NCBI GenBank assembly: GCA_012965075.1
Contig: DTSY01000062.1
Location: 1-34,933 of the forward strand
Origin: Gammaproteobacteria bacterium
GTDB lineage: Bacteria > Pseudomonadota > Gammaproteobacteria > Magnimaribacterales > Magnimaribacteraceae
DNA length: 34,933 nt
Direction: 5' to 3'
Positions 9,428-13,858 of this stretch are shown here, in pieces (the first letter of the stretch is position 1; each line of letters begins with the position of its first letter). The notes beneath the pieces were generated by a model that did not search any database, had not been told where the DNA came from, and worked only from the letters and a program-made list of their open reading frames with translations. Both the position numbers and the translations under genes were made by a program.

Positions 9428-9724
9428 TTATTTGTTTAGAGAGTCTTTAAACCAATCCGGAACAATATCAATGTCATACTTTCTTGCTAATTTGGCAACC
9501 AAAGGAATGGTAATAGGAGAAAAAGGTAACATAGTAAGAGCCCCAAAACCCAGCTCCTTTAGCACTATATTTAGCTGCTTGTTGGCCTTTTCTAAATCTT
9601 CTTTTGTAATATTTCCTTGAGTAAAAGAATAATAAGTCTTCAGCATTTCTCTAGAGCTCTCAGTGTCATGTTTTAGGGTAGCTTTAAGTAAAGCTAAAGC
9701 CCTTCTTATATTCCTGCCTAACAT
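9428..9724 (-). CDS. Small protein with LETM1-like C-terminal segment
   Basis: 98 aa, ATG start, no signal peptide. The N-terminal two thirds is predicted helical and charged. The last third, ALTMLPFSPITIPLVAKLARK followed by YDIDIVPDWF, resembles the short LETM1-type signature (LPF...P...LP...KL...GI.LLP) seen in small bacterial proteins. The role of these bacterial proteins is not established; in mitochondria the domain belongs to an ion-exchange protein. It is transcribed away from the PQQ dehydrogenase and toward the thiolase, with a 94-base gap after it. I am fairly sure it is a real gene, less sure of the family. Confidence 0.62.
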   Translation of the reverse strand: MLGRNIRRALALLKATLKHDTESSREMLKTYYSFTQGNITKEDLEKANKQLNIVLKELGFGALTMLPFSPITIPLVAKLARKYDIDIVPDWFKDSLNK

Positions 9725-9821: not shown

Positions 9822-12053
9822 ATGAATAAATCTTTCCCAATATTTACCGTGGGTGCAATTGTAGTTGCAGTGCTAATTTACTTCTTTTATAACAGTAAAG
9901 AGTCTCAAGGAGGTGTTATTGAGGATGAAATCAGCTCTCCAATAACTTCTTCTTCATCTGTAGGGCTTATAGATGATAAAAGAATCATTGAAGCTGAAGG
10001 TGAACCTGAGAATTGGATTGCTCACGGAAGAACATATGAAGAGCAAAGATTTTCTCCCTTAACAAAAATCAATAAAGAAAGTGTCTCTGACTTAGGACTT
10101 GCCTGGTATAAGGATATGGGAACTAACAGAGCTCTAGAAGCTACACCAATAGTTGTAGATGGAATTATGTTCTTCACAAGTACTTGGAGTCGAGTCTATG
10201 CGGTAGAAGCAAAAACAGGTAAGACACTATGGTCTTTTGATCCTGAAGTCCCTGGAGAATGGGCAAGAAAAGCCTGTTGCGACATAGTCAACAGGGGTGT
10301 GGCTGTTTATCAAGGGAAAGTATTCTTTGCGAGCTTAGATGGAAGATTGTTTTCACTCAACGCTGAAACAGGGGAAAAGATATGGGAAGTAGATACCATA
10401 ACTGATCGTACAAGAGCCTACACAATTACAGGGGCACCAAGGGTAGCAAAAGGAAAGGTCTATATAGGCAATGGCGGTGCAGAGTACGGTGTTAGAGGAT
10501 ACGTCACTGCCTATGACACAGAGACTGGTGAACAAGTATGGAGATTTTTTACTGTTCCGGGAGATCCGTCATTGGGATTTGAAGATCCGGCCATGGAAAT
10601 GGCTGCTAAAACTTGGAAAGGTACGAATTGGTGGGAATTTGGTGGAGGAGGAACTGTTTGGAACTCAATTGTCTACGACCCAGACTTTAATAATATCTAT
10701 TTAGGAGTTGGCAATGGATCTCCTTGGACAAGGGAAATCCGATCTCCAGGTGGAGGAGATAACCTATTCCTTGCTTCGATAGTTGCTGTCGATGCAGATA
10801 CAGGTAAGTACAAATGGCATTATCAGACGACTCCTGAAGACAATTGGGATTACACGGCCGTTCAAGACATGGCTTTAGCTGATATGGAAGTTGATGGAGA
10901 AAAGAAGAAAGTTCTCCTACAAGCTCCAAAAAATGGATTTTTCTACGTTATTGATAGATCTAACGGTAAAGTACTAAGAGCCCATCCATTTGCTGCGGTT
11001 ACTTGGGCTACTCATGTTGACTTAGAAACAGGAAGACCGGTTGAAAATCCTGAAGTAGATTATTCTGAGAATGGATCTTTTGTTCTACCGGGACCTTTAG
11101 GAGCTCATAATTGGCAAGCAATGTCAGTGGACTTAGATGCGGGCCTTGTATATATACCTGCCCAAGAAAATGCCTTCTTTTATGCGATTGATGAGAACTA
11201 TAAGAAAACAGGTATATACAAAAGAAACCCAGGCAGATGGAATATGGGGATAGAAATGAGTTCTTTAGCCCAAAATGTACTTTCTAACCTAGAATCAATG
11301 CCCGAACCAGGGGGTTTTCTTAAAGCTTTTGACCCTTTAACTGGTGAAACTAAATGGTCTGTGCCTATTCCGCATTACTGGAATGGAGGAGTTCTAGGCA
11401 CGGCTGGAGGACTGGTTTTTCAAGGAGATGCTCTTGGTATATTCTCAGCTTACGATAAGGAAACGGGCGAAAGGTTATGGGAATTTAATACTTATACTTC
11501 TATGCTTGCGCCCCCAATTTCTTTTGAAATAGATGGAGAGCAGTACGTTTCAATCCTAACAGGATCTGGTGGGGGAGATCTGTTTGGAGGAGAACCTCTA
11601 CCGCCGATAGAAATACAAGCCTCTCTTACCTACAACAATTTTGGAAGATTGCTAGTTTTTAAATTGGGCGGCCAAAAGGAGTTACCTATACCGGATGTAA
11701 GAGATAAAACTATCCCCGAACAGGTCCTAGCAGATGCCAGTAACGATCAAATCCGTAATGGAGAAAGTAATTACAATCAATACTGTGCCGTATGTCATGG
11801 CTTTGTAGTCAAGTCTGCTGGAGGACTACCAGATTTAAGAAAGATGACTACAGACACCCATGATCTATTTAACAAAATAGTGCTGGAGGGTATCTTAGGA
11901 AGTAATGGTATGGCAGGTTTTGCAGATGTCCTTTCCGAAGACGACGTAGATAATATACATCATTACGTTAGGGCCAGAGCTCATGAAGATAGGGAGGTTT
12001 CCTTAGGAAATATGGAAGCACCTCAATTCACTTGGTATGGGGTAGAAGACTAA
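9822..12053 (+). CDS. PQQ-dependent alcohol dehydrogenase with C-terminal cytochrome c domain
   Basis: Quinohemoprotein of the methanol/ethanol dehydrogenase family: oxidises an alcohol in the periplasm and passes electrons through a covalently bound heme. 743 aa. Residues 6-23 form an uncleaved-looking membrane anchor (no AxA site). The eight-bladed propeller follows, with the adjacent-cysteine disulfide C152-C153 (RKACCD), repeated GxxxW blade motifs (for example TGEKIWEVD, TGETKWSVP), and the active-site segment DNWDYT, where D343 matches the catalytic/metal aspartate. The residue two after it is Thr345, not the extra Asp of lanthanide-dependent XoxF/PedH enzymes, so calcium is predicted. 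The heme motif CAVCH is at residues 655-659. PQQ synthesis genes are not in the window. Substrate unknown. Confidence 0.93.
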   Translation: MNKSFPIFTVGAIVVAVLIYFFYNSKESQGGVIEDEISSPITSSSSVGLIDDKRIIEAEGEPENWIAHGRTYEEQRFSPLTKINKESVSDLGLAWYKDMGTNRALEATPIVVDGIMFFTSTWSRVYAVEAKTGKTLWSFDPEVPGEWARKACCDIVNRGVAVYQGKVFFASLDGRLFSLNAETGEKIWEVDTITDRTRAYTITGAPRVAKGKVYIGNGGAEYGVRGYVTAYDTETGEQVWRFFTVPGDPSLGFEDPAMEMAAKTWKGTNWWEFGGGGTVWNSIVYDPDFNNIYLGVGNGSPWTREIRSPGGGDNLFLASIVAVDADTGKYKWHYQTTPEDNWDYTAVQDMALADMEVDGEKKKVLLQAPKNGFFYVIDRSNGKVLRAHPFAAVTWATHVDLETGRPVENPEVDYSENGSFVLPGPLGAHNWQAMSVDLDAGLVYIPAQENAFFYAIDENYKKTGIYKRNPGRWNMGIEMSSLAQNVLSNLESMPEPGGFLKAFDPLTGETKWSVPIPHYWNGGVLGTAGGLVFQGDALGIFSAYDKETGERLWEFNTYTSMLAPPISFEIDGEQYVSILTGSGGGDLFGGEPLPPIEIQASLTYNNFGRLLVFKLGGQKELPIPDVRDKTIPEQVLADASNDQIRNGESNYNQYCAVCHGFVVKSAGGLPDLRKMTTDTHDLFNKIVLEGILGSNGMAGFADVLSEDDVDNIHHYVRARAHEDREVSLGNMEAPQFTWYGVED

Positions 12054-12057
12054 TAGA

Positions 12058-12618
12058 TTAATTTTCGAACTTAGTCTTGGGAGGTAAACTCGGAGGAGCT
12101 ACCTCTTGAAATTCAAAAGAAGGATTTCCTTCCACGTTGTTATTTGAAACAGATTCTTCGTATGGATTTGCCATTTCATCAAACTTATCTGCATCTAAAA
12201 CTCCATAAGTTTTTCTACCGTTAAGCTGTGTTCCGTCTTTAAGCTTCAGTAAAGCCGATTGGGCAATCTTATGATTTTTTTCATTCCAAACTAGGCTATA
12301 AGCTCTAGGTTTTCCAAATGGAATGCCCGCCTTATCCATATACCTAATCCAAAAATAAATTTTTCCTTCTCTTTTATTAAACTTATCGGGCTCGTCTATA
12401 GAAACCCAAATAAGTCTGAATTCCTCTGGTATTTCTTGTGTTGAAGGCCATCCTAATACCTGCTTGTATCCAATCCAGGTGAAGACATAAAAAGAAGCCA
12501 TTACTACGACTACTACTGTTTTTAATTTATTTGAGAACTTGGAATAAAGGCAGAAGATTAAGAGTAAGGCCGTTATGGCTACGTAAGCAGAAACTAATAA
12601 AATCCTTTCTTCAATCAC
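12058..12618 (-). CDS. Unknown membrane protein, third gene of the channel cassette
   Basis: 186 aa, not recognised. Two hydrophobic helices (about residues 6-24 and 33-50) are followed by an extracytoplasmic domain of about 130 residues with EEFRLIWVSIDEPDK, YFWIRYMD, RAYSLVWNEK and a Pro-rich acidic tail (EVAPPSLPPK). The GTG start overlaps the previous gene's stop (GTGATTGA, 8 bases shared), a sign of translational coupling. The stop lies four bases from the end of the convergent PQQ dehydrogenase. It probably works with the two channel proteins upstream; no function can be assigned. Confidence 0.8.
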   Translation of the reverse strand: MIEERILLVSAYVAITALLLIFCLYSKFSNKLKTVVVVVMASFYVFTWIGYKQVLGWPSTQEIPEEFRLIWVSIDEPDKFNKREGKIYFWIRYMDKAGIPFGKPRAYSLVWNEKNHKIAQSALLKLKDGTQLNGRKTYGVLDADKFDEMANPYEESVSNNNVEGNPSFEFQEVAPPSLPPKTKFEN

Positions 12619-13249
12619 TTTTATTTTCTATTAAAGGAGATCTACCCAATGCTTTGGTAAGTAACCTTTTTTGTATTTGATTTACATTAGAAATATTTTT
12701 TTTAGCATCAACTGAGAATCTAACTGCAGTTTTTTCATCACCAACTCCTTCCAATTCATGACTTCCATAGTAAATAAGCTCGACTTCTGGATTGAGTTTT
12801 TCAACCTTAACGTTAACAGTTAAAGGTTCATCATAATTAGCCTGATAGTGTAGGAGGTTAACCACATATTCCCCCGATTGAAGCGCTCTAATGGTGACTG
12901 TTTCTTGATTAATAGGATTTGAAATCATCGCTCCATCAACATTCATCTTGTCCGCAAAGATTCCTCTATCGTCTCTATCCAAATGCATTAGTCCAGTATC
13001 TCGGTTGTGATACCAAACTAATTCCCCTTGAGGACTTTCTACTATGGCATCTACATCATCAGGGTGCTGGTCTGGCCATCTAACCGAAATAAGAATTTCT
13101 GCTTTCGAATCTATCTTACCTCCCTCACTTGGATCAGATATCAGCATGAATGCGATTGCAAACATGAAAGCAAAACCTAAAAGAGAATTGAAGAGCAAAT
13201 CAGTAAAAGCATCTTGGCCTTCGCCATTACCAAGAATTCTATGTTTCAT
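12611..13249 (-). CDS. ExbD/MotB-like single-span protein with periplasmic beta-rich domain
   Basis: 212 aa. A short cytoplasmic N-terminus leads into one helix, DAFTDLLFNSLLGFAFMFA, with D17 at its mouth, the position of the proton-carrying Asp of MotB and ExbD (compare MotB YADFMTAMM). The rest (about residues 45-200) is extracytoplasmic and is not a normal ExbD or OmpA-like domain. Residues 50-97 read VRWPDQHPDDVDAIVESP...LDRDDRG, then SGEYVVNLLHYQ near 125-136, which recalls acidic DUF2135/YfaP-like beta-sandwiches; that is my inference. It lies nine bases after the MotA/ExbB-like gene and overlaps the next gene, so the three form one operon. Probable stator half of an ion-driven complex. 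Confidence 0.75.
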   Translation of the reverse strand: MKHRILGNGEGQDAFTDLLFNSLLGFAFMFAIAFMLISDPSEGGKIDSKAEILISVRWPDQHPDDVDAIVESPQGELVWYHNRDTGLMHLDRDDRGIFADKMNVDGAMISNPINQETVTIRALQSGEYVVNLLHYQANYDEPLTVNVKVEKLNPEVELIYYGSHELEGVGDEKTAVRFSVDAKKNISNVNQIQKRLLTKALGRSPLIENKSD

Positions 13250-13258
13250 TTGAATCCT

Positions 13259-13858
13259 TTAATCAAGATCTTTTGAAGTAAGGCTATTTATTAACTTACT
13301 GAGTGATGAATCAAGCAAGAAGTATTGGAATTTGAGAATAGTACTAGTAACCAAGCCCGAAAGAGTTGTGTATAAAGCCACTGCCATACCTCCGGTCATA
13401 GCAGAGAGTAAAGGCTGTATTTTTTCTGGATCAAAATCTTTCATTTCGCCAATAGGCAAAAGCATTAGGATAAATCCTACAACCGTCCCGGTTAAGCCAA
13501 GTTTTAATAAAATATCAGAAATCATGTGACCCAGGGCATGCCTATTTGATAATTCATCTTCAAGTATCTTTAAAAGATTTTGTCTTCCAACTGGTGTCTT
13601 TGACTCTGCTGTCTTTAAGAAATCAGAAACCTTACCCGCTCCTTTCATTTCAGAATCTAAATTTCTGGCTATGTAGATCCAGTGCAGAGTGGCAACCAGA
13701 TAAATTGCCAGGATGAGAAATGAAATCTTACTTTTATCTGATACCAAGATCAGATTTAAAAAATTGAGATCATAGAGGAGATAAAAAGCAAAAATAATTA
13801 CAGTCAGCAAGACAATTGATCTTTGTAAAAGATATTGAGGTTTTTCTTCTTTTAACAC
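13259..13858 (-). CDS. MotA/TolQ/ExbB family proton-channel protein
   Basis: 199 aa, GTG start. Four hydrophobic segments: residues about 13-37, 45-65, 118-136 and 148-176. Between the second and third is a short cytoplasmic stretch of about 50 residues. The last two carry the family signature KLGLTGTVVGFILMLLPIG and AMTGGMAVALYTTLSGLV, with the small/Thr residues lining the ion path in ExbB, TolQ and MotA. The cytoplasmic loop is far shorter than MotA's, arguing against a flagellar role, and no flagellar genes are near. The next gene supplies the matching single-span partner. Cytoplasmic-membrane ion channel; what it drives is unknown. Confidence 0.85.
   Translation of the reverse strand: MLKEEKPQYLLQRSIVLLTVIIFAFYLLYDLNFLNLILVSDKSKISFLILAIYLVATLHWIYIARNLDSEMKGAGKVSDFLKTAESKTPVGRQNLLKILEDELSNRHALGHMISDILLKLGLTGTVVGFILMLLPIGEMKDFDPEKIQPLLSAMTGGMAVALYTTLSGLVTSTILKFQYFLLDSSLSKLINSLTSKDLD

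Follow-up and report, generated by a model that had tools for sequence, protein, structure and literature searches.

Protein B, encoded at positions 12,611 to 13,249 of the window, is the middle gene of a conserved three-gene operon that holds its own MotA-type partner (protein A) and a third protein (protein C), and that is also carried by phages. The window is the whole 34,933-nucleotide stretch of a gammaproteobacterial contig analysed here, and the genome is of SAR86 type, its closest named relatives being SAR86 MAGs (91–93% identity). The operon, A-B-C, is about 1.8 kb long. Together, the three proteins resemble a membrane motor powered by protons and bearing an immunoglobulin-like domain on the outside, which would make them a new form of a familiar type of machine. 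This conserved module is common to proteobacteria, among them many marine bacteria, and to phages, among them large ones, and is undescribed in Pfam, NCBIfam, PADLOC, PHROGs and the papers searched; literature searches on DUF2135 with ExbD, phage ExbB, and PQQ with MotA returned nothing relevant. The operon and its neighbour comprise the following features:

13259–13858, minus strand: protein A, 199 aa, MotA/TolQ/ExbB-family channel subunit (Pfam PF01618, E 8e-9)
12611–13249, minus strand: protein B, 212 aa, ATG start, helix 11–37 with Asp17, then a DUF2135-like all-beta domain (about 52–190), predicted periplasmic
12611–12618, minus strand: overlap between the end of protein B and the start of protein C, 8 bases, from ORF coordinates
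12058–12618, minus strand: protein C, 186 aa, two membrane helices (2–25 and 30–54) with a Lys-rich loop between them
9822–12053, plus strand: PQQ-dependent alcohol dehydrogenase (methanol/ethanol family) with a C-terminal cytochrome c region (TIGR03075, E 3.8e-189)

We scored 186 loci with profiles of proteins A, B and C for gene order on one strand. Some of these loci are the same genome reached twice, and the figures count loci rather than independent lineages. The order A-B-C was found in all 20 SAR86 relatives, 79 of 80 GTDB loci (the exception lies at a contig end), 77 of 80 IMG/VR viral contigs (exceptions also at contig ends) and five of six GenBank phage loci; in the sixth, from a Serratia phage, a long protein carries the domain on its own. 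Homologues of protein C were present in all but one of the 186 loci. The median spacing between B and C was -4 bases across the GTDB and IMG/VR loci, and the 8-base overlap in the window suggests that translation of these two proteins is coupled. Bacterial and phage versions of protein B share only 30–40% identity, yet the gene order is conserved. In three loci on contigs labelled Deltaproteobacteria, Spirochaeta and Myxococcota (L090, L095 and L096), protein B is 60–62% identical to a SAR86 protein, which may reflect transfer or mis-binning.

The sequence-only reading of this ORF had proposed an ExbD/MotB-type membrane helix with an Asp, fused to an acidic beta-sandwich-like domain that resembles DUF2135/YfaP domains and neither the small domain of ExbD nor the OmpA-like one of MotB. 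The strings it quoted (DDVDAIVESPQGE, LDRDDRG and SGEYVVNLLHY) all occur in protein B, and D17 indeed lies inside the sole hydrophobic helix (predicted helix 11–37). When 54 members, filtered to about 72% identity, were aligned, 15 positions were invariant (D17, W58, D65, D67, L90, D91, D93, D94, G96, D100, N114, E116, R121, G126 and P154). A larger, redundant set of 185 sequences retains W58, D65, D67, D93, D94, G96, E116, R121 and G126 in all members and D17 in 184, with one gap. This residue pattern is far beyond chance. The window's own protein B had no match in Pfam or NCBIfam, and it falls below the Pfam gathering cut-off for DUF2135 (PF09906).

The AlphaFold model of protein B, built from the 54-member alignment (mean pLDDT 89), consists of helix 11–37 followed over 52–190 by strands only, except for a short terminal helix. 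Alignment of the domain by hhalign to a profile of twelve DUF2135 sequences from other genomes gave a probability of 97.3 and an E-value of 2.8e-11 over 116 columns, whereas all controls (reversed, column-shuffled, and the alignments of proteins A and C) had E-values of 0.04 or higher. The match was recovered with phage-only members (E 2.5e-11) as well as bacteria-only members (E 1.4e-6). In single-sequence Pfam scans of the 54 members, DUF2135 was the commonest family, with weak hits in nine members (best E 0.0039). Against a same-order ExbD, hhalign gave a probability below 1% over the domain, which also had no Pfam match, and Foldseek against the PDB returned no ExbD, TolR or OmpA fold, nor any other significant match. 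Likewise, the OmpA-like peptidoglycan-binding domain had no Pfam match in protein B and was not among the families listed for the 54 members. As the model is all-beta, the profile matches DUF2135 and the ExbD, TolR and OmpA folds are missing from the PDB matches, the proposed fold stands, and the evidence supports reading protein B as an ExbD/MotB-type helix followed by a DUF2135-like domain. Foldseek against predicted viral proteins gave five matches at E <=0.001, none with a known function shown. No solved structure related to protein B or C was found; a match to Anoctamin-10 (E 0.31) is due to chance.

Protein A has predicted membrane helices at about 10–28, 45–63 and 116–134, and a fourth at about 150–180 by alignment. 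A profile built from its family hits solved MotA, TolQ, PomA and ExbB chains. Residues G121, G124, T125, G128, T165 and G168 are invariant, and the pore-helix motif A..TTl.G is conserved from SAR86 through phages. The PF01618 domain and pore motifs in protein A and the Asp helix in protein B are thus all present, as in MotA/TolQ/ExbB-type complexes. In protein C, the two helices are followed by an alpha/beta domain (66–137), a flexible linker, a conserved C-terminal strand and an LPPxxLPxK-like tail, with conserved residues G56, P104, R105 and K181. The model of protein C (pLDDT 88.8) had no fold match in the PDB, and its sequence none in Pfam or NCBIfam. Charges and hydropathy place the domains of proteins B and C outside, and that of protein C is predicted to be periplasmic.

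Rhizobium and Sinorhizobium phages, among them Pootjesviridae and phage 16-3, account for 27 GenBank records with a homologue of protein B, at about 28–40% identity, and homologues of proteins A and C adjoin it in the five Rhizobium-phage loci examined. Complete A-B-C sets are held by viral contigs of up to 527 kb. As 12 of 24 viral contigs checked encode a T4-type capsid protein or large terminase above the family cut-off (one further contig had a weak terminase match), many of these contigs are genuine phages. The phage copies of A-B-C have no PHROGs family. In a tree of 85 protein B sequences, the main bacterial group formed one clade of 35 (support 98/91), whereas phage sequences fell on several separate deep branches; another small group united 16-3-type phages with alphaproteobacterial, probably prophage, copies. 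As this tree is unrooted, it leaves the direction of transfer unset. Divergent copies of protein B lie beside C, and in one case A, in alphaproteobacterial genomes (L267–L269, families f134 and f145), and at least two of these loci resemble prophage regions. A trypsin-like, probably periplasmic protease gene is located just upstream of A in 16-3-type rhizobial phages (L022:2181-3080 and L026:2577-3224) and in a related alphaproteobacterial, possibly prophage, locus (L269:9989-10633). Serratia phage 2050H1 (Ackermannviridae) encodes a 669-aa protein, annotated as hypothetical, with a DUF2135-like domain and no channel partner (L024:2768-4777), which matches phrog_1735. Apparent neighbour families that resembled antisense reading frames in phage and high-GC loci were left out.

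In the window, the PQQ alcohol dehydrogenase gene converges on C, with 4 bases between them. A dehydrogenase of this type is convergent on C, in constant orientation, in 71 of 80 GTDB loci (one marine clade), is absent from that position in the other nine, some of which may be contig ends, and is present at all 20 SAR86-relative loci. In our sample of the SAR86 order, the identical 29 genomes have the operon and a close dehydrogenase (70% identity or more). As this is one syntenic block, the linkage in that order is not independent functional evidence, and it could be inherited synteny. In one gammaproteobacterium of another family, A-B-C comes after a run of genes on its own strand that encode a PQQ dehydrogenase, cytochrome c, a solute-binding protein, SoxYZ, a metallohydrolase and a rhodanese. 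In the stretches read from four large genomes of an alphaproteobacterial family (f131), the surrounding 9 kb or so contained no dehydrogenase of this kind, and phage copies do not have the convergent link. A 98-aa ORF elsewhere in the window (9428–9724, minus strand) has only a sub-threshold match to an E3-binding Pfam family.

Based on these observations, A-B-C is probably a proton-driven inner-membrane motor of the ExbBD/MotAB/TolQR class, in which the load domain is DUF2135-like and a third subunit faces the periplasm. Proteins A, B and C would assemble as one inner-membrane complex, in which several copies of protein A may ring the helix of protein B. Protons passing Asp17 of B and Thr165 of A would move B relative to A. 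In the periplasm, the acidic sandwich of B would stand where ExbD has its small domain and MotB its OmpA-like anchor, and together with the periplasm-facing protein C it would act on a client. Protein B may be the force-transmitting, load-side adaptor that the sequence-only reading envisaged. In marine proteobacteria, the client would probably be tied to periplasmic PQQ-dependent alcohol oxidation; in phages, it would probably be a host envelope component. More tentatively, A-B-C may be an undescribed family of proton-driven envelope motors of which large T4-like and rhizobial phages encode complete sets that act mechanically on the host envelope; phages would then be the main reservoir, and a single bacterial lineage would have adopted the motor for periplasmic quinoprotein metabolism. 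Few ion-driven inner-membrane motors are known, namely flagellar stators, the Ton, Tol, gliding and secretion motors, and Zorya. If the motor reading is true, A-B-C adds a distinct design, set apart by its load domain and by a conserved third subunit. That isolated phages and T4-like viral contigs encode it prompts one to ask why a virus should supply a proton-powered envelope machine of its own. As the operon is small, this is directly testable.

Not every A-B-C member need conduct protons, as about a dozen copies of protein B from alphaproteobacteria have another residue in place of D17. All f131 sequences listed (L244–L255) have V at this position, another Asp four residues earlier and K at the position of N21, while the sandwich is conserved. 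Protein A of this family retains Thr165, and A and C adjoin B in the stretches read. This group either does not conduct protons or uses the earlier Asp instead. In one f131 locus (L260:5246-7431), C is followed on its strand by genes for a metallophosphoesterase and for a Ser/Thr kinase that has a universal-stress domain. These neighbours, the missing drive Asp and the clustered invariant acids of protein B (D65, D67, D91, D93, D94 and E116) would also suit a regulated ion channel or sensor, in which a ligand or calcium bound to the acidic sandwich controls the entry of protons through A and reports on the state of the periplasm. We consider this unlikely, as solved members of the protein A family belong to ion-driven motors (PMC9389320).

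The motor reading can be compared with known systems. Like ExbB-ExbD and TolQ-TolR, A-B-C pairs a PF01618 protein that matches solved TolQ and ExbB with a protein that has a single N-terminal membrane helix bearing an Asp. The envelope topology is compatible with a novel ExbBD branch for TonB-dependent uptake, and protein C, a helix-anchored domain with a Pro-rich tail, could stand in TonB's place. Such a branch is nevertheless very improbable: the sandwich of B is DUF2135-like and lacks the ExbD/TolR fold, C is unlike TonB or TolA (it has two membrane helices, and the PDB search gave no TonB-like fold), the genome already has two ExbD-family genes, and the operon is also found in phages. It is equally improbable that A-B-C is a relative of Zorya (ZorAB) that serves its phage and bacterial carriers in defence or counter-defence by blocking other phages, since, despite its spread across both and a weak match of A to ZorA (PADLOC E 7e-5), B and C have no PADLOC match, C occupies the place of ZorC or ZorD, and the chromosomal copies form one clade, most of them fixed beside a metabolic gene instead of in varied islands. 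With MotA-MotB and PomA-PomB, the operon shares the protein A family, probably four membrane helices in A and the Asp in the helix of B, whereas protein A is shorter and its cytoplasmic loop is small, and the OmpA-like anchor was not found in B. Finally, protein B has W, DxD, PxG, D-rich, E and G-Y positions in common with DUF2135 (PF09906; E. coli YfaP and similar proteins). Unlike in that family, however, the domain in protein B is joined to a membrane helix that carries an Asp, and it has a channel subunit as its partner.
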